Source of the DNA: Hymenobacter jeollabukensis
Lineage (GTDB): Bacteria > Bacteroidota > Bacteroidia > Cytophagales > Hymenobacteraceae
DNA length: 64,000 bases
Direction of reading: 5' to 3'
Assembly: GCF_005771675.1 (NCBI RefSeq)
Contig: NZ_VAJM01000010.1
Coordinates: 1 to 64,000, forward strand
A program made the position numbers and the translations under genes. Below the pieces are notes generated by a model that had not been told where the DNA came from, ran no database searches, and saw only the letters and a program-made list of their open reading frames with translations. Shown one piece after another: positions 5,242-45,511 of the stretch (positions within the stretch are counted from its first letter, which is position 1; each line of letters starts with the position of its first letter).

Positions 5242-5354
5242 AACGTCATGCCGAGCGCAGCCGAGGCATCTCGCGTGCTGACGCCCGATAGTAAATTCTG
5301 TTCAACGAGCAGATTACTATCGAGCAAGATGTCTCGGCTGCGCTCGACATGACG
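5242..5354. repeat. Inverted-repeat element, family A
   Basis: CGTCATGCCGAGCGCAGCCG at the left pairs with CGGCTGCGCTCGACATGACG at the right (one mismatch); arms continue through GAGGCATCTCGC against GCAAGATGTCTC. It fills the gap between the membrane protein gene and the 3' end of the DUF6986 gene. Confidence 0.8.
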
Positions 5355-5375: not shown

Positions 5376-6812
5376 CTAGGCCGGCTGCTGGCGGCGGCCC
5401 TGCAGGATGCGGTAGAACGAGCGGGACTGAATTTCCTCGGTGGTCAGGCCGGTAGCCAGCACTTCCTCCTCGGTGATGGCGCCGCAGTTGAGGGCGCGCA
5501 GGAAGAAGTTGAGCAAGCCCTGCCCGGTGGCCGCGTCGTCGAAAATGTCGCCGGTGAGGGTACTGATGGCGGCGCGCTCCACGAAGGTTTTCAGGCGGTG
5601 CAGCGCATCCGAGTAGCTGCTCAGGAAGAAGGTGTAAGTGGCCGCGTAGCGCATCGGCAGCTGGGCCGGGTTCAGGTCCCAGCCCTGGTAGAGTCCGTTG
5701 ATGAGCGAGTGAGTGGTGTGCGCGAAGCCCTGTCGCCAGGCGTTGTGCACTGATTCGCGGTTTTCGCGCAACTGCTCGTAGGTCAGCGCCTCCCCGCGGT
5801 GGGGGCCGATGGGCATCACGTTGGTGGCCCCGTCGGAGAGGAAGATGCCGGTGCCGCCCAGCGCCACCTTGGTCATGTGGTGGGCAAAGTCGCAGACGGG
5901 GTGAGCCATGGTCTGGTAGCGCGCCGTGATGCCGGCCGAGGCCGTGTAGTCGTAGGTGCCGAAGTGGGCGGCAATGCAGCGGCCCTCGCTGGCGCGGATG
6001 ATGCGCATCAGCGGGTTGCGGCCCTCCTCGTCCATGATGATCTGGGTGGCCTCGACCATCGTTTCCATACGCAGGGTGCCGGCGGGCAGGCCGTTGGCTT
6101 GCTCCAGCAGCTCAAACAGGCGCACCATGGTGGTCATCTGCTCGGGGATGGTCACCTTGGGCAGCATCACCACGAAGTTCGGGGGCAGCTGCCCGCCGGT
6201 TTCCTGTAGCAGCGTGGTCAGGAAGATGTCGAGGGTGCGCACGCCGCGCTGCTTCAGGTCCTCGGTGAAGGGCTTGATGCGGATGCCGATAAAGGGCGAC
6301 ACGGTGAGCTGCTGCATGCCCTTGGCCAGCTCCTTGGCGGCCTGCACGGCGGTGGCGTCCTCTTCGTCGTCGGGGCGGTTGCCGAAGCCGTCCTCGAAGT
6401 CGATGCGGAAGTCTTCGACGGCCTCGGTCCGCAGCTTGCGCAACACTTTGTTGTAGACCGAATACGCCAGCCAGGCGTGCTCCTTTTTGCGTTCCGCCTC
6501 GCTCATCGCGTCGAGGCGGGCGGTGAGGTCGGCCACCTCGGCGGCCAGGGTGGGCAGGTGCTCGTGACCTTCGAGGCGCAGCACCCGGGCCAGCTCGACG
6601 AAGTTGGGCGCGTAGGTCTGCAGGCTGTTGAGGGCAATGTCGCCCATGCGCTGGCAGGTGTCGGCCTTGAAGAGGTTGGCCCCGCCGTAGACGGTGTGCA
6701 CCGGCTGCCGGTCGGGCCGGTCGCCGGGGTAGGTGCGCTGAAATTTCAGGTTGGCGGTGCCAAGCTGCTCCAGCAGCTGGTTTTTATCGGATTCGGGCAG
6801 GCTGAGGTGCAT
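5376..6812 (-). CDS. DUF6986 aldolase-like protein (HpcH/HpaI superfamily)
   Basis: 478 residues, last gene of the urate/allantoin cluster. The sequence resembles the DUF6986 family, TIM-barrel proteins related to HpcH/HpaI aldolases, citrate lyase beta and malate-synthase-like C-C lyases. Visible features are RQPVHTVYGGA near residue 35-46, FRIDFEDGFG near 139 (acidic metal-binding segment), GIRIKPF near 176, VVMLPKVTIPEQM near 216, and the acid-rich METMVEATQ near 250. The reaction is not established for this family. Position next to purine-ring degradation genes suggests it acts on the C2 product (ureidoglycolate or glyoxylate), for example condensing or cleaving glyoxylate; this is inference. 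It is separated from uraH by a family A repeat, so co-transcription is likely but not certain. Confidence 0.75.
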   Translation of the reverse strand: MHLSLPESDKNQLLEQLGTANLKFQRTYPGDRPDRQPVHTVYGGANLFKADTCQRMGDIALNSLQTYAPNFVELARVLRLEGHEHLPTLAAEVADLTARLDAMSEAERKKEHAWLAYSVYNKVLRKLRTEAVEDFRIDFEDGFGNRPDDEEDATAVQAAKELAKGMQQLTVSPFIGIRIKPFTEDLKQRGVRTLDIFLTTLLQETGGQLPPNFVVMLPKVTIPEQMTTMVRLFELLEQANGLPAGTLRMETMVEATQIIMDEEGRNPLMRIIRASEGRCIAAHFGTYDYTASAGITARYQTMAHPVCDFAHHMTKVALGGTGIFLSDGATNVMPIGPHRGEALTYEQLRENRESVHNAWRQGFAHTTHSLINGLYQGWDLNPAQLPMRYAATYTFFLSSYSDALHRLKTFVERAAISTLTGDIFDDAATGQGLLNFFLRALNCGAITEEEVLATGLTTEEIQSRSFYRILQGRRQQPA

Positions 6813-6845: not shown

Positions 6846-6974
6846 CGTCATGTCGAGCGAAGTCGAGACATCTCGCGCGCTAACATCTGATAGTAATCAA
6901 CTCAACGAGATGAATGCTATTCGGCGAGATTCTTCGACTCTGCTTGATGCGCAGAATGCTCTGAATGACGTTCT
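6846..6974. repeat. Inverted-repeat element, family A (asymmetric subtype)
   Basis: Left end CGTCATGTCGAGCGAAGTCG; right end CTGAATGACGTTC preceded by CTTGATGCGCAGAATGCT. The right part matches the element at 7970-8101 better than it matches its own left arm, so these two form a subtype. Confidence 0.7.
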
Positions 6975-7007: not shown

Positions 7008-7349
7008 TCAGCTGCCGCGGTAGGTGCTGTAGCCGTAGGCATTCAGCAGCAGCGGCACGTGGTAGTGCGAGGCGTCGGAGACGGTGAAGACGATTTCGAC
7101 GTAGGGGTAGAAGGTCGTGGCGTTGGTGCGCTCGAAGTACTCCTGGGTGAAGAATTTCAGCTTGTAGGGGCCCACCGGCAGGCGCATGGTGGGGGAGAGC
7201 AGGTCCGGAACGCGGCCATCCTGGTTGGTCACGCCGCGGGTCATTTCCAGCCACCCGTCGCCGGGCAGCGGGGTGTAGAGCACCACCGTCACGTCGGCGG
7301 CGGGGCGGCCCTTGGTGGTATCGAGAATGTGGGTGGTAAGCTGACTCAT
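7008..7349 (-). CDS. uraH: 5-Hydroxyisourate hydrolase
   Basis: 113 residues of the transthyretin-related family. The enzyme opens 5-hydroxyisourate, the product of urate oxidation, to 2-oxo-4-hydroxy-4-carboxy-5-ureidoimidazoline (OHCU). The two family signatures are present: N-terminal LTTHILDTTKGRPA with catalytic His7, and the C-terminal tetrapeptide YRGS that forms the tunnel of the tetramer; HYHVPLLLN supplies a second active-site histidine. There is no signal peptide, so it is cytoplasmic. It lies between uraD and the DUF6986 gene, in the order expected for a urate pathway operon. The 89-bp gap to uraD is filled by a heptad-built repeat. Confidence 0.95.
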   Translation of the reverse strand: MSQLTTHILDTTKGRPAADVTVVLYTPLPGDGWLEMTRGVTNQDGRVPDLLSPTMRLPVGPYKLKFFTQEYFERTNATTFYPYVEIVFTVSDASHYHVPLLLNAYGYSTYRGS

Positions 7350-7449
7350 GTTTGGTGCTTGGTGCTTAGTGCCTGGTGCTTAGTGTTTGGTGAGTAGAGT
7401 GCTGGCAGCAGAACGACCTAAGCACTACGCACCAGATACTAGGCACTAA
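7350..7449. repeat. Heptad-built inverted repeat spanning uraH start and uraD stop
   Basis: Starting next to the uraH ATG the sequence runs in 7-bp steps (TTGGTGC, TTGGTGC, TTAGTGC, CTGGTGC, TTAGTGT, TTGGTGA), and the other end, around CTAAGCACTACGCACCAG and TAGGCACTAAG, is its complement. The right arm includes the uraD stop codon (7439-7441) and the last sense codons, so the repeat has written the end of that gene. Confidence 0.75.
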
Positions 7450-7945
7450 GAAGTTTTTCCAGCCGCAGCCGGGTGATTTTGCGCTGTTCGTCGGCGGCAA
7501 GGATGATTTCGTCGTCGGCGTCGTTGAGCAGGCGGGCCTGCAGGATGTGCAGCATGTCCTCGGCCGATTTGCCCGAGGCCGATACGATGAAGATGTAGCC
7601 GAATTTCTGCTCGTACGCCGCGTTGCCCTCGGCCAGGGCTTGCAGGGTATCTTCGGAAGCCTGGCGCACGGCGCCCTGCTCACCCTCGGCCCAGGCGCTG
7701 GTGCTGGCGAATTTCTCGCGCAGCGCGTTCAGGTCGCCGATTTTGGGGTGGTGGGTAAAGGCTTCGCGGTAGTCGTCGGGGCCGAGGTTGTTCCAGATGC
7801 TATCGGCGTGGTCGAGCAGGGTTTCTTTGTCCGAGGCCGGGAAAACGTCGAGCATCTGCTCCACCCAGCGCGAGGCGCCGCAGCATTTGCGCAGCGCCTC
7901 GGCCAGGGCCGGCCGGTCGAGGTGGTTGAGTTCGTCGAGAGTCAT
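7439..7945 (-). CDS. uraD: OHCU decarboxylase
   Basis: 168 residues of the OHCU decarboxylase family, which converts 2-oxo-4-hydroxy-4-carboxy-5-ureidoimidazoline stereospecifically to S-allantoin with release of CO2. It is an all-helical cytoplasmic enzyme. The signature FTHHPKIGD around residues 63-71 carries the catalytic His (His66 of HHP), with SASGKSAEDML near 125-135 and the C-terminal NDADDEIILAADEQRKIT region typical of the family. Length is normal. The last codons and stop lie inside the heptad-built repeat shared with uraH, so the final two or three residues may be a by-product of that insertion. A family A repeat separates it from allE. Confidence 0.93.
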   Translation of the reverse strand: MTLDELNHLDRPALAEALRKCCGASRWVEQMLDVFPASDKETLLDHADSIWNNLGPDDYREAFTHHPKIGDLNALREKFASTSAWAEGEQGAVRQASEDTLQALAEGNAAYEQKFGYIFIVSASGKSAEDMLHILQARLLNDADDEIILAADEQRKITRLRLEKLLSA

Positions 7946-8108: not shown

Positions 8109-8855
8109 CTACACCGTTGTTGGAAAGCGGTTCACGTTTTTGTAGTAGATGTACACCGAGGGCTCCTGGCCCATGGCCGTGGCCCACTGCTGGCAGTAGG
8201 GCGCCATCCAGATGGAGTCGCCCTTTTTCACCGGGTACCACTGCTGGTCGAGCATGTAAATGGCCTGGCCCTGCAAATACATCAGCCCGTGCTCCATGAT
8301 GTGGGTTTCGACCATGGGCAGGTGGCCGCCGGTGCCGTAGGTGAAGATGTTTACGGCCATGTCGAAGCCCAGCTCGTTGGGCAGCAGCTCCTGAATGCGC
8401 AGGGCCTCGTCGTTCATGTAGACGGGCGCCTTGCTCAAGTCCCGCTCGCCGAAGTACACGCCCGGCGCGTCGTGGCCTGCCAGCGGCTCGTACACTTTGT
8501 GAAAAGTTAGTACCTGCGTGCCTTCGGTGGGCTGCTCGAAGCGGTATTCCTGCCCGGTGGGCACGTACACGTACTGGCCCTCAGCCAAAGTGCGCGTCTG
8601 TCCGTCGACGGTGACCTGCACCTGCCCGCCGACCACGTAGAAGAAAATCTGGCTGGCTTCGGTGCGGCCCAGCAGCTGCCCGCCCTCGCGCAGGGTAATG
8701 AGCGTCTGGCAGAGGCGGGCGCCCATCTGCTCGTTGATGATGACGTTGACGGTGCAGTTGGTCCAGCCCGGCACGTTGCTGTTGATGTAGCCATCGGGGG
8801 CAATGATGGCGTGGTTGCGCTTGACGACGGACCGGGTAAGGGCGGAAATTTCCAT
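8109..8855 (-). CDS. allE: (S)-ureidoglycine aminohydrolase, bicupin
   Basis: 248 residues with two cupin domains (about 45-125 and 165-240). The enzyme removes ammonia from S-ureidoglycine, the product of allantoate hydrolysis, giving S-ureidoglycolate; it needs manganese. The N-terminal half has APDGYINSNVPGW and the strand-turn pattern GGQLLGRTEASQIFFYVVGG; the C-terminal half holds the likely metal site, GGHLPMVETHIMEHGLMYL (Glu and His ligands) and GDSIWMAPYCQQW. These match the AllE/YlbA family closely. It is cytoplasmic. Its position between allC and uraD fits the pathway; 131 bp separate it from allC. Confidence 0.93.
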   Translation of the reverse strand: MEISALTRSVVKRNHAIIAPDGYINSNVPGWTNCTVNVIINEQMGARLCQTLITLREGGQLLGRTEASQIFFYVVGGQVQVTVDGQTRTLAEGQYVYVPTGQEYRFEQPTEGTQVLTFHKVYEPLAGHDAPGVYFGERDLSKAPVYMNDEALRIQELLPNELGFDMAVNIFTYGTGGHLPMVETHIMEHGLMYLQGQAIYMLDQQWYPVKKGDSIWMAPYCQQWATAMGQEPSVYIYYKNVNRFPTTV

Positions 8856-8986: not shown

Positions 8987-10228
8987 TTAGCCGGCAGAAA
9001 TCAGCCCGGCCAGAAATTGCTCGGCCACCTGCAGGGCCGCGGCCAGGTCAGCGGGCTCCACGTTTTCGAGCGGGTTGTGGCTGATGCCGCGGTAGCAGCG
9101 CACGAAGAGCATGGTAGCCGGTGCCACCTGCGACACCGGCACCGCGTCGTGCCCGGCCCCGCTGACCAGCTCGATGACCGGGTAGCCCGCTGCGGCTACG
9201 GCCTCGCGCAGCCCGGCGTTCAGGGCCACGTCGCAGCTGACGGGGGCGGTTTGCTGCACCAGCTGCCAGTCGAGGGTGAGGCCGCGGCGGGTGGCCTGGG
9301 CTTCGGCCTGCTGGCGCAGCTGCTCGTAGGCGGCGGCCAGCTCGGCTTCGTCGGGGCTGCGCAGGTCGAGGCTGCAGACGACCTCGCCGGGAATCACGTT
9401 GCTGGCCGCGTGGGGCACCTGCAGCTTGCCCACGGTGGCCACCAGGCTGCGGCCGTGGGCGCGGGCAAACTGCTCGGCCAGGAGCACAAACTCGGCGGCG
9501 CCGGCCAGCGCGTCCTGGCGCATGGTCATCGGCACGGTGCCGGCGTGGCCGGCCATGCCCCGAAACGTCAGCTCCACCCGCCGCTGCCCGGCAATGGCCG
9601 TGACGACGGCCACCGGCACCTGCTGCTCCCAGAGCACTGGTCCCTGCTCGATGTGCGCCTCGAAGTAGCCCTGCCACTCGACGGCGGGCAGCACGTCGGC
9701 GGCCAGCTGGGTGGGGTTGCCGCCCATGGTGGTAATGGCCTCGGCCAGCGAAATGCCGGCGGCATCGGTGCGGCCGAGCAGGTCGGGCTCGAAGGCGCCG
9801 GTCAGCACTTTGGAGCCCAGGTAGGTGGTGTGAAACCGCACGCCCTCCTCGTCACTGAACGCCAGCAGCTCCAGGTGAAACGGCAGTTCGGCGCGGCGGG
9901 CGGCCAGCTGTTCCAGCAAATCCAGCCCCAGCAGCACGCCCAGCGGCCCGTCGAAGCGGCCGGCATTCACCACCGTGTCGATGTGCGAGCCAATGACGAA
10001 CGTCTTGGCCCCAGGCCGGGCGCTGGCCAGCCGCCCGCGCAGGTTGCCGATGTTGTCGACGCGCACCTCCAGGCCAGCCTGCTGCATCCACTGCTGCACC
10101 AAGTCGCGTCCCTGCACGAAAGCCGGGGTACCGAAGGTGCGCGTAACCACGCCCGCTTCCTCGCTGATGGCGGCCAATTGCTCGATGCGGCGCATGAGCT
10201 GCGCCGCGCGTTCCGGATAGTTGCTCAT
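8987..10228 (-). CDS. allC: Allantoate amidohydrolase, M20 family
   Basis: 413 residues of the M20D-type Zn/Mn-dependent amidohydrolases. It hydrolyses allantoate to S-ureidoglycine, CO2 and ammonia. Metal ligands are visible: GSHIDTVVNAGRFDGPLG (His82 and Asp93), FSDEEGVRF (Glu127/128), EAHIEQGP (His about 193) and GISHNPLENV near the C-terminus. The dimerisation domain is the insert at about 210-325 beginning GMAGHAGTVPMTMRQDAL. The family also includes N-carbamoyl-amino-acid hydrolases, but the pathway context (allB 6 bp upstream, allE next) makes allantoate the expected substrate. Cytoplasmic; tightly linked to allB and likely co-transcribed. Confidence 0.9.
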   Translation of the reverse strand: MSNYPERAAQLMRRIEQLAAISEEAGVVTRTFGTPAFVQGRDLVQQWMQQAGLEVRVDNIGNLRGRLASARPGAKTFVIGSHIDTVVNAGRFDGPLGVLLGLDLLEQLAARRAELPFHLELLAFSDEEGVRFHTTYLGSKVLTGAFEPDLLGRTDAAGISLAEAITTMGGNPTQLAADVLPAVEWQGYFEAHIEQGPVLWEQQVPVAVVTAIAGQRRVELTFRGMAGHAGTVPMTMRQDALAGAAEFVLLAEQFARAHGRSLVATVGKLQVPHAASNVIPGEVVCSLDLRSPDEAELAAAYEQLRQQAEAQATRRGLTLDWQLVQQTAPVSCDVALNAGLREAVAAAGYPVIELVSGAGHDAVPVSQVAPATMLFVRCYRGISHNPLENVEPADLAAALQVAEQFLAGLISAG

Positions 10229-10234
10229 GAGCGG

Positions 10235-11569
10235 CTAGCGGGTAAGAATCTGGCCCAGGTTGAGCCGCACAAAGTCGGGCCGCTGGTAGGCCAGCGCGCC
10301 GGCCAGGTAGGTCTGCTCCACCACGCCGCGCAGCGTCTCGCCCACGTAGGGCGACACCTTGTGGCGGTGGTGCAGCCCGGCTTCGGTCACGGTAAACGTC
10401 GCGTCGGCGTCGAGCACCAGCAGGTCGGCGTCGTAGCCCGCTTCGAGGCGGCCCTTGCGCCCAGCCTGGCCGATGAGCTTCGCCGGGTTTTCGCTCAGCC
10501 AGCGGGCCAGGTCCGATAAAGTAGCGCCGCGCCGCTGGGCGGCCGTCCAGAGCGCGGGCAGGGCCAGCTGCAGCGAGGCAATGCCGCCCCAGGCCGTGGT
10601 GAAGTCGCCCGTGTCGATTTGCTTGAGCGCGGGCGGGGCGGGGGAGTGGTCGGTGGCCACGAAGTCGATGAGGCCGGCCTGCAGGGCTTGCCAGAGCTGC
10701 TCGTTGTTGGCCCGCTCGCGGATGGGCGGGGCGCACTTGTAGCGCGTCTGGCCGTCGGGCAGGTCCTCGGCGTTGAAAAACAAGTAGTGCTGCCCGGTTT
10801 CCACCGTCAGCGGCAGGCCCTCGGCTTTGGCCGCCGCTATCTGGGCCAGCGAGTCGGCGGAGGAAAGGTGCACGATGTGCGTGGGGCAGCCGGTGTCGCG
10901 GCACAGCCGGATCATCAGCGCCACGGCCTCGTCTTCCCAGTGTTTGGGGCGCGAGGCGAGGTAGTTCGGGTAGGAGCGTTTGTCGCCCTGCTTCCAGGTA
11001 TCGTTGTCCTCGCTCAGCTCGCAGTGCACCAGCAGCGGCACCCCGTGGCGGGCCAGCCGGGGCATGACGGCGCGCAGGTCGGCTTCGGTGGCGTTGGGAA
11101 AGTCGTCGATGCCGGAGTGCGTGAGGAAAGCCTTGAAGCCGAGCACGCCGCGGGCCAGCAGCGGCTCCACCTCGGCCGCGTTGCCGGGCACGATGCCGCC
11201 CCAGAAGCCGCAGTTGACGTGCAGCTTACCGGCGGTGGCGGCCAGCTTCTGCTCGAAGTTGGCCACCGAGGTCGTGACCGGGCTGGAGTTCAGCGGCATG
11301 TCGACCAGCGTGGTCAGGCCGCCGGCCAGCGCGGCGCGGGTGCCCGTGTCGAAGCCCTCCCAGTCGGTGCGGCCGGGCTCGTTCAGGTGCACGTGCGGGT
11401 CGATGACGCCCGGCAGCACGGCCCGCTCCCCGACATCCGTGACGGGGCCGCCGACGGGCTCGTGTTCGGGCAGCACGGCGGCAATCCGGCCGCCTTCGAT
11501 GCGCACCACACCGGGCCGAATACCGGCCGGGGTGACAATTTTTTTACTTTTTATTGCGAAATCTGGCAT
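10235..11569 (-). CDS. allB: Allantoinase
   Basis: 444 residues of the cyclic amidohydrolase superfamily. It opens allantoin to allantoate using a binuclear metal centre. All ligand motifs can be read: DPHVHLNEPG (His59, His61), GFKAFL (Lys146, the carbamylated lysine), LVHCE (His182), HIVHLSS (His234) and VATDHSP (Asp307). The remaining residues, including PLNSSPVTTS at about 92-101, fit allantoinase rather than dihydropyrimidinase. It is the first gene of the leftward operon allB-allC-allE-uraD-uraH-DUF6986 and faces puuD across a 449-bp gap that contains a family C repeat. Regulation is not evident; no regulator of the pathway is encoded in the window. Confidence 0.93.
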   Translation of the reverse strand: MPDFAIKSKKIVTPAGIRPGVVRIEGGRIAAVLPEHEPVGGPVTDVGERAVLPGVIDPHVHLNEPGRTDWEGFDTGTRAALAGGLTTLVDMPLNSSPVTTSVANFEQKLAATAGKLHVNCGFWGGIVPGNAAEVEPLLARGVLGFKAFLTHSGIDDFPNATEADLRAVMPRLARHGVPLLVHCELSEDNDTWKQGDKRSYPNYLASRPKHWEDEAVALMIRLCRDTGCPTHIVHLSSADSLAQIAAAKAEGLPLTVETGQHYLFFNAEDLPDGQTRYKCAPPIRERANNEQLWQALQAGLIDFVATDHSPAPPALKQIDTGDFTTAWGGIASLQLALPALWTAAQRRGATLSDLARWLSENPAKLIGQAGRKGRLEAGYDADLLVLDADATFTVTEAGLHHRHKVSPYVGETLRGVVEQTYLAGALAYQRPDFVRLNLGQILTR

Positions 11570-12018: not shown

Positions 12019-13425
12019 ATGGTTTCCCTTCTCGTTTTGGTGGTTGTGCTGGCGGTGTTCCTGGTTGTCATCGGCGTCAGCGCGTTTTTGCACCGGCTGG
12101 CCCGGGGCCACAGCCGCGGCGGCGCCCTTGGTGAGGGCGGCCTGACCATGCAGGGCTTCGCCTACGCCCTCACGGTGCTGGCCGTGCTTTTTCTGCTCGC
12201 CGTGGGCTACAACTTCGCCGCCGGCTCGGCCTACGAGGGGCACCTGATGGAATGGCTCAACATCGTGGTGCGGCTGATGCACGTGACCTTCGGCATTGCC
12301 TGGATCGGGGCCTCGTTCTACTTCGTGTTCCTGGAAAACGCCCTGAACCGCACCGACAACGTGCGCGAGGAGCTGGCCGGCAACCTCTGGGCGGTGCACG
12401 GCGGCGGCTTCTACTACCTGGAGAAGTACAAGCTCGCGCCCAAGGAAATACCCAAGGCCCTGCACTGGTTTAAGTACGAGGCCTACTTTACCTGGCTGAC
12501 CGGCTTCAGCCTGCTGTGCGTGGTGTACTATTTCAACCCTTCGGCCATGCTCATCGACCCGCAGGTGCTCGATATCAGCCCGATGGCCGGGGTGGGCATT
12601 GGTATTGGCTCCTTCGTGGTGGCCTGGATTATCTACCACCTACTCTGCCGCACGCCGCTGGTCAAAAACGGCCCGCTGATGGCCGTGCTGGGCTTTCTGA
12701 TCTGCACCGCCTTTGCCTGGTTCTACTGCCAGGTGTTCAGCGCCCGGGCCGCTTACCTGCACTTCGGGGCCATGCTCGGCACACTGATGGTCGGCAACGT
12801 GTTTTTCATCATCATTCCGGCCCAGAAAGCCATGGTGAAGGCCGCCACCGAGGGCCTGCCGCTGAACCCCGAGCTGGGCAAGCACGCCGGGCTGCGCTCC
12901 TTGCACAACAACTACTTCACCCTGCCGGTGCTCTTCGTGATGGTCAGCAACCACTTCCCGAGCACCTTCGGCCACAGCTACCCCTGGCTGGTGCTGGCCG
13001 CTATTGCCTTGGGCACGGCCGGCATCAAGCACTGGCTGAACCTGCGCGAAAAGCACCAGGCCACCGGCATCGTCTTCCCGCTGGCGGCCGGGCTGCTGTT
13101 GGCCGTGGCCTTCGTGACGGCACCCAAAACCGACGCCGGGGCGGCGGCCAACTGCACGCCCAACGTGTCGATAGCCCAGGTGCAGGGCATCGTGCAGCAG
13201 CGCTGCCTCCGCTGCCACTCCGCCTCGCCCACCGACGACGTGTTCAAGTCGCCGCCGAACGGAGTGGTCTACGACTCGCCCGCGGACATCATCCGGCTCA
13301 AGGACAAGATCATGCAGCGCGTGGTCGTCACCAAGACCATGCCCCAGAACAACAAAACCGGCATGACCCAGGAGGAGCGCGACCTGATCCGCTGCTGGAT
13401 CGAGCAGGGCGCGAAGGCGGAGTAA
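12019..13425 (+). CDS. puuD: Membrane urate oxidase with C-terminal cytochrome c (PuuD)
   Basis: 468 residues, an integral membrane protein with about eight hydrophobic helices (residues 5-380) followed by a soluble c-type cytochrome domain. It oxidises urate to 5-hydroxyisourate and passes electrons to its own heme and the respiratory chain, with no need for hydrogen peroxide-forming uricase. The heme motif is CLRCH (Cys396, Cys399, His400), and KTMPQNNKTGMTQEER near 438-453 resembles the loop with the distal Met ligand. Core motifs include HVTFGIAWIGASFYFVFLEN near 92-110. It is divergent from allB and supplies the first step for the adjacent operon. No xanthine dehydrogenase or soluble uricase is encoded nearby, so urate is either imported or made elsewhere. 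Convergent with the next gene, 5 bp apart. Confidence 0.92.
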   Translation: MVSLLVLVVVLAVFLVVIGVSAFLHRLARGHSRGGALGEGGLTMQGFAYALTVLAVLFLLAVGYNFAAGSAYEGHLMEWLNIVVRLMHVTFGIAWIGASFYFVFLENALNRTDNVREELAGNLWAVHGGGFYYLEKYKLAPKEIPKALHWFKYEAYFTWLTGFSLLCVVYYFNPSAMLIDPQVLDISPMAGVGIGIGSFVVAWIIYHLLCRTPLVKNGPLMAVLGFLICTAFAWFYCQVFSARAAYLHFGAMLGTLMVGNVFFIIIPAQKAMVKAATEGLPLNPELGKHAGLRSLHNNYFTLPVLFVMVSNHFPSTFGHSYPWLVLAAIALGTAGIKHWLNLREKHQATGIVFPLAAGLLLAVAFVTAPKTDAGAAANCTPNVSIAQVQGIVQQRCLRCHSASPTDDVFKSPPNGVVYDSPADIIRLKDKIMQRVVVTKTMPQNNKTGMTQEERDLIRCWIEQGAKAE

Positions 13426-36136: not shown

Positions 36137-37453
36137 TTAGTTGGCCGCGGGGGCCGGGGAAGTTACGGCCGCGCGCACCTGCTGCTTGAACTTGGCGGGC
36201 AGGTCGCGGGCGGTGGTGTTGGGGTATTTCTGGGTGTAGAGCAGGGCCACCACCTTGCGCGTGGGGTCGACCCAGTAGGTGGTGCCGAAGATGCCGCCCC
36301 ACTCGTAGCTGCCTTCCGATAGCCCGGATTTTTCGGCGTTGGCGGCCGTCATGATGCTGAAGCCCAGGCCGAACTTGTTGCCGCCCTGCTCCAGCGCACC
36401 CATCTGGTTCGAGGTCATCAGGCGCACGGTGGCGGGCTGCAGCAGGCGGCGGCCGCCGTACTCGCCCCCGTTGAGCAGCATCTGCAGGAAGATGGCGTAG
36501 TCGTCGATGGTGGAGGAGAGGCCCGCCCCGCCCGAAAAGTAGGTACCGGCCTGCCTGGGGTAGTCCGGCATCATCGGGCCCATCACGCCGCCCGCGGGCG
36601 GCACCGGCACCAGCTTCTTGCTCTGCGGATCTTCGGTGTAGAGCCGGGCCAGCCGGTTGTGCCGGTCGGCGGGCAGGTAGAAGTAGGTGTCGCGCATGTT
36701 CAGCGGCTCGAACAGCCGCCGGCGCAGAAACTGGTCGAGCGGCTGTCCGCTGAGCACTTCGATCAGCCGGCCCACCACGTCCACGCTCAGCCCGTAGGTA
36801 AACTGTTCCCCGGGCTGGTGCAGCAGCGGCAGCCGGCCCAGCTGGTCCATCGAAGTAGCCAGCAGCCCCCCGGGCGTGCCGATACCGCTCGGAATGCCGG
36901 CTTTGGCGTAAATGGCGCGGGCCTCCTTGCTGCCGATAACCGGGTAGCCCAGGCCCGAGGTGTGGGTGAGCAACTGCCGGATGGTTATTTCCGACTTGGC
37001 CGGCACGGTGGTGTAGCTGCTGTCCTGGGGGTTGAACGAAGCCAGCACCTGCGGGTGGGCAAAGGCCGGCAGGTACTGGCTCACCGGGTCGTCGAGCTGA
37101 AACTTGCCCTCGTCGTAGAGCAGCATCAGGCCCGCGCTGGCCACGGCCTTGGTCTGCGAGGCAATGCGGAAAATGGCGTCGGGCCGCAGGGGCGTCTTGG
37201 CCGCCACGTCGTCGTAGCCGAAGGCTTTGCGGTAGATGATGCGGCCATCCTGCGCCACCAGGGCAATGGCGCCGGGCACCCGCTCGGTGCTCACGTACTC
37301 CTGCAGCAGCTGGTCGAGGCCGGGCAGCGGGCGGGGCCGCGCCGCCAGGGTGCGGGCAGCCGGGCGCGCCGCCGTGGCCGGGGCTGCCGTGTGGCAGCCC
37401 GCCGCGGGGCCCAGGCTCAAGGCGAGCAGCAGGAGGTAAGCAGCCGGTTTCAT
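36137..37453 (-). CDS. Serine hydrolase lipoprotein, class C beta-lactamase fold
   Basis: 438 residues with a lipoprotein signal ending LGPAAGC (Cys20), so it is anchored in an outer or inner membrane facing the periplasm. The fold is the beta-lactamase/D,D-peptidase (EstB-like) type: S-x-x-K motif SQTK (Ser99, Lys102) followed by the Tyr motif in FTYGLSVDV (Y-x-S in place of Y-x-N) and HTSGLGYP near 165. Members include esterases, D-aminopeptidases and penicillin-binding enzymes, rarely true beta-lactamases, so an esterase or lactonase activity is more likely than drug resistance. Placed between the two CoA-transferase subunit genes, which invites the idea that it supplies a hydroxy- or keto-acid from an ester; this is inference. 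Confidence 0.9.
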
Positions 37454-45412: not shown

Positions 45413-45511
45413 GTCGAGCGCAGCCGAGACATCTCGCCGGATAGTATTCCAATTGACTGGTTGCTACCTCACATCAGCACGCGAGATGTCTCGACAAGCT
45501 CGACATGACGG
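45413..45511. repeat. Inverted-repeat element, family A
   Basis: Left CGAACGTCCTGTCGAGCGCA, right CTCGACATGACGG, with GAGACATCTCGC pairing to GCGAGATGTCTC. It fills the gap after ftsX. Confidence 0.75.

Follow-up and report, generated by a model that had tools for sequence, protein, structure and literature searches.

The protein discussed here belongs to the DUF6986 family (PF22484) and is encoded at positions 5376-6812 of a 64,000-nucleotide (64-kb) stretch of Hymenobacter jeollabukensis DNA, referred to below as the window. It is the last product of a purine operon, and it probably splits ureidoglycolate or uses the product of that cleavage. The more specific proposal, to which we give a probability of roughly one half, is a Mg-dependent ureidoglycolate lyase on the malyl-CoA lyase fold, converting (S)-ureidoglycolate to glyoxylate and urea. 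Ureidoglycolate cleavage is the simplest account because DUF6986 keeps a constant place in purine operons, two routes in those operons meet at ureidoglycolate, and the ureidoglycolate lyase AllA is rare in DUF6986 genomes. We infer the substrate and the reaction from this gene association and this rarity, both of which were computed.

The DUF6986 gene and its operon

Six co-directional genes form the operon, in the order allB-AAH-allE-uraD-uraH-DUF6986, and the first five are named by curated models. A urate oxidase gene is transcribed divergently from them. The features are:

5376-6812, minus strand: DUF6986 (PF22484) protein, 478 aa, ATG start; PF22484 643.5 bits, E 1.7e-193
7008-7349, minus strand: uraH, hydroxyisourate hydrolase; TIGR02962 137.1 bits, cut-off 87.45
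7439-7945, minus strand: uraD, OHCU decarboxylase; TIGR03180 168.7 bits, cut-off 139.4
8109-8855, minus strand: allE, (S)-ureidoglycine aminohydrolase, which makes ureidoglycolate; TIGR03214 291.9 bits, cut-off 200
8987-10228, minus strand: allantoate amidohydrolase (AAH), M20 family; NF006775 496.8 bits, cut-off 479
10235-11569, minus strand: allB, allantoinase; TIGR03178 558.6 bits, cut-off 357.85
12019-13425, plus strand: urate oxidase of the PF06181 (PuuD-like) type; PF06181 413.3 bits

The sequence-only reading of this stretch had described an uncharacterised HpcH/HpaI-superfamily protein at the end of the operon, and the gene is indeed a full-length DUF6986 member, the last of six. The PF22484 match covers residues 19-469 and profile positions 3-408 of 408, far over the curated cut-off of 27 bits; Pfam assigns this family no function. 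A pseudogene or chance open reading frame is ruled out by conservation and by the full-length family match. Matches to better-known families stay under their cut-offs: HpcH_HpaI reaches 22.5 bits (cut-off 25) and the malate synthase domain PF01274 (MS_TIM-barrel) 16.6 bits (cut-off 26.4). At E 0.01 the protein matches neither PF04115 (AllA) nor any NCBIfam family, malyl-CoA lyase models included.

The same reading had also seen no lyase or glyoxylate enzyme nearby, which holds for the window at the tblastn sensitivity used: AllA, Gcl, Hyi, GlxR, AllD and urease alpha were not found at E 1e-4, nor was a separate malate synthase or malyl-CoA lyase gene at E 1. The sole match is a weak one (E 0.65) of a malyl-CoA lyase query to the DUF6986 open reading frame itself. 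Outside the window, the same genome (G000) carries malate synthase A (contig C23) and urease (contig C9).

A REP/MITE-like repeat with the core TCGAGCGNAGNCGAGACATCTCG (at most 2 mismatches) lies on both sides of the DUF6986 gene (window 5251-5347 and 6853-6875) and again near 45.4 kb (45414-45436). At 36137-37453 the window also encodes a protein of the beta-lactamase/serine hydrolase fold (PF00144, 246.6 bits), a broad family in which resistance is not implied.

Predicted fold and active site

An AlphaFold2 model built on 47 aligned members (pLDDT 89.9, pTM 0.88; lid residues 421-423 below 50) shows a TIM barrel with a C-terminal lid, and its match to 4l9y_A spans model residues 22-442. Foldseek ranks malate synthase A (MSA) first in the PDB, followed by CitE-like proteins and a haloarchaeal malate synthase. 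VIA-align, a second look at the Foldseek hits, places the malyl-CoA lyase of R. sphaeroides first (4L9Y; Z 27.3, 2.3 A, 291 residues), then CLYBL (26.6), haloarchaeal malate synthase (25.0), MSA (3cv2_A, 23.4) and malate synthase G (MSG, about 21). In a profile search of PDB sequences, malyl-CoA lyases come first (E 3.5e-4 and 0.013) and MSG follows (0.022), with an evident chance match, Bridging integrator 2 (0.01), ranking between; a single-sequence phmmer search of the PDB gave a chance match only. Profile-profile comparison with MSA yielded only a 72-column local match (probability 10.9). The predicted fold and the catalytic residues place DUF6986 in the malyl-CoA lyase / CitE / malate synthase superfamily.

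The literature on this superfamily (PMC3832036) describes a conserved residue set: two Mg ligands (Glu and Asp), a Glu-Asp pair that holds waters of the Mg, an Arg together with the Asp or Asn that orients it, and, in the lid, an Asp that is replaced by Glu in one thioesterase group. The corresponding residues of DUF6986, D138, E140, D141, R178, E254, D288, D425 and D426, are invariant in 47/47 aligned members. The putative Mg2+ ligands, E254 and D288, are paired by hhalign with Glu157/Asp184 of the Chloroflexus malyl-CoA lyase and recur in 14/14 rows of the search alignment (A1). The hhalign comparison with the malyl-CoA lyase alignment covered E254, D288 and the region of the lid Asp; it did not reach the D138-x-E140-D141 (D-x-E-D) motif or R178 (cf. 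Arg92/Arg76), which were placed by motif and strand position.

The lid Asp (cf. Asp299/Asp318; Asp631 in MSG) may be either of two residues. The hhalign pairing with the malyl-CoA lyase Asp points to D425, and the spacing of the xDxAT motif favours D426: the C-terminal FDDAAT is spaced like MEDAAT of MSA and MEDRAT of E. coli MSG, which holds the catalytic Asp631. Five rows from actinobacterial plasmids keep D425 and have E at position 426.

Asn331 was considered as a reader of the ureido group and set aside as no more than a lead. With L021 and L022 omitted, the four members from ethylmalonyl-CoA-type operons (see below) have Thr at this position and all other rows have Asn (41/41), but the plasmid rows vary (Asn, Ile, Gln, Leu, Ala), including that of Nocardia, which has an allantoicase.

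Association with purine breakdown

Species genomes were scanned with alignment A1, and the best 80 loci among the matches listed were surveyed. They span Bacteroidota, Acidobacteriota, Chlorobiota, Ignavibacteriota, Balneolota, Spirochaetota, Melainabacteria and kin, SAR324, Neomarinimicrobiota, Myxococcota and Pseudomonadota. By tblastn, uraH was found in 67 of the 80, uraD in 65, allB in 54, urate oxidase in 45, allantoicase and XDH in 41 each, and AAH and allE in 18 each; profile searches confirmed the gene identities in cluster representatives. The flanks hold one or more core uricolytic genes in 68/80 loci, and uraD or uraH stands on the same strand within 900 bp of DUF6986 in 62/80.

The allantoate step varies among these loci, with DUF6986 constant throughout: 40 have allantoicase, 18 have AAH/AllE and 1 has both, and in 21 neither was seen. 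The allantoicase route and the AAH plus AllE route both end in ureidoglycolate. In one SAR324 locus (L101, 5946-9656), DUF6986 directly follows three oxamate carbamoyltransferase genes (allG/fdrA/allH), whose enzyme acts on a product of ureidoglycolate. Five records from actinobacterial plasmids carry members 32-35% identical. There, DUF6986 adjoins a bifunctional allantoicase/ureidoglycine aminohydrolase in Tsukamurella, an allantoicase homologue in Nocardia, a urease in Gordonia, and a polysaccharide-deacetylase-family protein with an NCS1 symporter in Paenarthrobacter. Two further neighbours were seen: a PF03571 (M49)-like protein of 560 aa recurs near DUF6986 in Acidobacteriota-type loci (L103:11459-13144, L108:12227-13918), and a Uma2-family protein follows DUF6986 at L096:6659-7219.

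The 13 of 58 relatives that carry DUF6986 are exactly those with AllB over its cut-off; the chance of this coincidence would be 3e-13 under independence of the genomes, an assumption that does not hold. In G035, one of these 13 and a genome of the same family, DUF6986 survives in fragments only, a pseudogene without the barrel, beside retained XDH, urate oxidase, allB, AAH, allE, uraD and uraH; it is a natural loss of the last pathway step. The pseudogene (9996-10462 of L178 = G035:C1:1884500-1902500) preserves N- and C-terminal parts.

Of 247 evenly drawn Bacteroidota genomes, 12 carry a DUF6986 match over cut-off, and all 10 AllB matches of at least 459 bits sit in 10 of those 12. Four AllB matches at 367-371 bits (G126, G107, G088, G171), barely over cut-off, occur in genomes without DUF6986 and, judged by score, may be other amidohydrolases. 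The two genomes with DUF6986 and no AllB, G293 and G211, hold divergent members, and the surrounding 20 kb or so yielded no core uricolytic gene; in G293, two guanine-deaminase-like genes lie near DUF6986. An association with allantoin genes, whose absence the sequence-only reading had named as evidence against its proposal, is thus present both in the relatives and across the surveyed loci.

A Gammaproteobacteria sample was set aside. There, 75/369 genomes match (48 over cut-off), full-length only in Ketobacter, and the others look like HpcH/CitE cross-matches. Five of its loci (L149-L153) encode proteins of about 430-550 aa whose barrels match DUF6986 at about 65 bits and which have a lid-like ADRAT/ADRAS motif, possibly a separate HpcH/HpaI subfamily.

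Ureidoglycolate and glyoxylate enzymes in DUF6986 genomes

Pathway enzymes were counted in 49 genomes that hold surveyed loci (50 of the 80 loci, less L049). Some samples share DNA (G001/L035, G028/L036, G046/L060, G111/L110); hence G111 and G345 are one genome counted twice in the counts over 62 genomes. AllA (PF04115) was not found at E 0.001 in 45/49 DUF6986 genomes. The four matches are in Ketobacter (182.3 bits), the Acidobacteriota genome G336 (58.7) and two SAR324 genomes (29.5 and 28.2). In Ketobacter, AllA clusters with homologues of allantoicase, uraD, uraH and guanine deaminase, and DUF6986 lies in a separate ethylmalonyl-CoA-type operon. An E. coli AllA query had no tblastn match in 91 loci, and PF04115 was not found in six Hymenobacter genomes, a profile search that did not include the window's own genome.

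Malate synthase (at least 121 bits) is present in 19/49 genomes and was not found in 30/49. The threshold drops matches of 19-34 bits; the raw counts are 24/49 over the PF01274 cut-off and 40/49 at E 0.001, and the surplus comes from the DUF6986 genes (as coordinates show for G315 and G343, presumably so for the rest). Malate synthase also occurs in 10/12 relatives with full DUF6986 and in congeners lacking DUF6986. In one congener it is split by an internal TAG (G006:C41:256065-256798), and DUF6986 is intact there. This frequent coexistence with DUF6986 (19/49, congeners among them, and the window's genome) counts in favour of the lyase.

True glyoxylate carboligase (Gcl) is over cut-off in 0/62 genomes. 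As a glyoxylate sink it was rejected: four matches near 345 bits are taken as acetolactate-synthase relatives, and so is a 190-bit tblastn match in L088. Urease would be a sink for released urea and is likewise counted for the lyase. Intact urease alpha (at least 186 bits) occurs in 6/12 relatives with full DUF6986 vs 5/46 others (Fisher p 0.006, kinship uncorrected); the threshold leaves out G028 (49 bits, two stops) and marginal matches in G038, G039, G053 and G057. In L179 urease lies about 8 kb from allB.

A second operon context

Four members stand in a different setting: Ketobacter L105 and Accumulibacter L106, L109 and L113. In the tree they form a clade that joins Acidobacteriota rows (support 89/86) among purine-operon members; with a midpoint root, weak deep forks and long rows (e.g. 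L022, L031, L034), the clade's place among other rows is weakly fixed. In all four, DUF6986 precedes an acyl-CoA dehydrogenase and a mesaconyl-CoA-hydratase-like gene. The L105 dehydrogenase matches methylsuccinyl-CoA dehydrogenase (608 bits to 8ciw). The hydratase-like gene of L105 matches beta-methylmalyl-CoA dehydratase more weakly (107 bits to 8hgn), its best match being an unnamed MaoC protein. A B12 mutase of the methylmalonyl-CoA mutase family lies downstream in L105 and L113, and MeaB in L105.

From these matches the operons are read as parts of the ethylmalonyl-CoA pathway, in which glyoxylate is joined to or released from acyl-CoA. No other HpcH/HpaI protein was found in Ketobacter at E 0.001, and DUF6986 may be its beta-methylmalyl-CoA lyase. 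Two Accumulibacter loci (L106, L113) have a Chloroflexus-type malyl-CoA lyase near DUF6986; the malyl-CoA lyase copy of L128 matches 6kin at 685 bits and 4l7z at 674.5 bits. Malate synthase is present in each of the four genomes of the clade.

At positions where 90% of the other members agree, the clade carries 9 fixed changes, and 6 of them fall in barrel-mouth loops or the lid. Eight other clades jointly have 28 such changes, 5 in loops (Fisher p 0.011, with loops defined from model strands, and clades and loops picked after the positions were seen). These changes are suggestive: they fit an altered substrate on an unchanged catalytic core.

Proposed mechanism

The fold and the residues are computed; the roles given to the residues are inferred. 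E254 and D288 would hold Mg2+, and E140/D141 its waters. The metal would bind the carboxylate and hydroxyl of ureidoglycolate, and R178, positioned by D138, would help deprotonate the hydroxyl. Cleavage of the C-N bond would follow, by analogy with the C-C cleavage that malyl-CoA lyase performs on malyl-CoA, and the leaving urea would be protonated by the lid Asp (D425 or D426). By our own reasoning, ureidoglycolate, HO-CH(COO-)-NH-CO-NH2, may be seen as an aza-analogue of malyl-CoA, HO-CH(COO-)-CH2-CO-SCoA. With NH in place of the CH2 that links hydroxy-acid and carbonyl, ureidoglycolate could be handled by the same machinery.

Evidence against the lyase and alternative functions

Several points weigh against a ureidoglycolate lyase. 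We know of no activity for any DUF6986 protein. The fold family otherwise performs C-C chemistry on CoA esters, and DUF6986 keeps the lid and its Asp. Some members reach 26.6-34.2 bits on PF01274, over its cut-off of 26.4. The ethylmalonyl-CoA-type members imply acyl-CoA/glyoxylate chemistry with unchanged catalytic residues. If the enzyme were a lyase only, glyoxylate would be without a known sink in genomes with neither Gcl (0/62) nor malate synthase (not found in 30/49). A lyase may even be dispensable, since ureidoglycolate is described in PMC3793230 as only moderately stable, decaying spontaneously to glyoxylate and urea.

The genomic association has exceptions too. Twelve of the 80 loci lack a core purine gene: four are ethylmalonyl-CoA-type, two have XDH only (L058, L070) and four are shorter than 13 kb (L064, L096, L099, L107). 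In L091 (Spirochaetales) and L103 (Blastocatellia) no purine gene was found in full 10-kb flanks, nor was one in 17 kb of the Nonomuraea plasmid locus. The AllA count covers DUF6986 genomes only. In the counter-example G336, DUF6986 adjoins a purine operon (L098), and the genome also encodes an AllA homologue that is divergent but full-length (27% identity to the E. coli protein across 152 of 160 residues).

These points bear on several rival functions. The sequence-only reading had left an either/or between a ureidoglycolate-cleaving and a malate-synthase-like enzyme. The enzyme class stood, borne out by fold, catalytic residues and context; the sequence does not separate the two reactions. 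The lyase is favoured by the rarity of AllA and the patchiness of malate synthase, and glyoxylate/acyl-CoA chemistry by the ethylmalonyl-CoA-type operons.

As the main rival, DUF6986 could be a pathway-dedicated malate synthase, or another acyl-CoA/glyoxylate condensing enzyme, that turns glyoxylate and acetyl-CoA into malate and CoA while ureidoglycolate decays spontaneously or through an unrecognised enzyme; we hold this possible, though doubtful. Yeast offers an analogue in DAL7, a malate synthase in the DAL cluster. MSA as Foldseek's top PDB match, the FDDAAT lid spaced like those of MSA and MSG, and members over the PF01274 cut-off (34.2 bits at best) all speak for it. So do the small clade ahead of ethylmalonyl-CoA-type genes, the 30/49 genomes without malate synthase, the 0/62 with true Gcl and the spontaneous decay documented in PMC3793230. 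The window protein itself, however, stays under the PF01274 cut-off, and a malate synthase already exists in 19/49 genomes and 10/12 full-DUF6986 relatives (one broken by the stop). AllA would be expected alongside at least sometimes, yet the only strong match is that of Ketobacter, and the homologue in one Acidobacteriota genome is divergent. The altered active-site-loop residues of the four ethylmalonyl-CoA-type members (6/9 changes) suggest that their substrate differs from that of the rest. A general glyoxylate-cycle malate synthase was set aside, as aceA had no match in the 80 loci; this also counts against the dedicated form.

Condensation of glyoxylate with another carbon acid (e.g. pyruvate), or cleavage of another glyoxylate-derived hydroxy acid, as in other HpcH/HpaI enzymes, is unlikely. 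The sub-threshold HpcH_HpaI match, the fold matches to CLYBL and CitE and the promiscuity ascribed to malyl-CoA lyase in PMC3832036 are consistent with it, but no recurrent product-using gene was recognised among the annotated gene clusters, a subset of the clusters.

Both chemistries might also reside in one active site, which would cleave ureidoglycolate to urea and Mg-bound glyoxylate and condense that glyoxylate with acetyl-CoA to malyl-CoA or malate, the toxic aldehyde never being released. We regard this as a long shot. If true, a dual C-N lyase and C-C synthase would account at once for the lack of a lyase, the lack of a glyoxylate sink and the ethylmalonyl-CoA-type clade.

Least credible is an accessory role for DUF6986, with an M20 hydrolase (either AAH acting promiscuously or a separate ureidoglycolate amidohydrolase, UAH) handling ureidoglycolate: UAH and AAH share the M20 family, and a member of the M20 hydantoinase/carbamoylase family occurs in 28/62 genomes, some away from the operon, but 34/62 have none at E 1e-40 and the DUF6986 catalytic residues are all invariant, unlike those of a non-enzymatic protein. 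A second M20 protein as UAH was also rejected for the window's genome, where the operon AAH is the sole TIGR01879 match (E at most 1e-40). In G146, G237 and several allantoicase-route genomes, M20 members lie away from the operon, and the amidohydrolase route may operate there.

Implications and comparison with known enzymes

If the ureidoglycolate lyase is correct, a so far uncharacterised domain of Bacteroidota, Acidobacteriota, Actinomycetota and several further phyla gains a function, and a non-orthologous enzyme fills the gap at the end of aerobic uric acid breakdown. A C-C-bond superfamily would gain a C-N lyase through a substrate isosteric with malyl-CoA. DUF6986 also tests what sets specificity, because malate synthases and malyl-CoA lyases have near-identical catalytic residues and different outcomes. 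The lyase reaction and the superfamily are already known; their pairing would be new, as far as the literature searched shows. The term DUF6986 was not found there, and searches on allantoin or ureidoglycolate with HpcH, malate synthase or lyase returned no description of such an enzyme in titles or abstract starts.

Three kinds of known enzyme invite comparison. The AllA/DAL3 ureidoglycolate lyases (EC 4.3.2.3, PF04115) share the proposed reaction and pathway place. Unlike DUF6986, they form an unrelated family, strong in only 1/49 DUF6986 genomes; PMC3793230 describes AllA as nickel-dependent.

Malate synthases A and G share with DUF6986 the superfamily and the xDxAT lid motif with its catalytic Asp. 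They differ in that the window protein stays under the PF01274 cut-off, no aceA lies near DUF6986 (80 loci), and a real malate synthase coexists with DUF6986 in relatives.

The malyl-CoA / beta-methylmalyl-CoA lyases (R. sphaeroides 4L9Y, Methylobacterium extorquens 5UGR, Chloroflexus 4L7Z) are only about 17% identical to DUF6986, which has additional helices (model residues 52-129) between strands one and two, sits mostly in purine operons and is without an NCBIfam match. They have in common with it the TIM barrel with C-terminal lid, the Glu/Asp Mg ligands, the D-x-E-D motif and the lid Asp.

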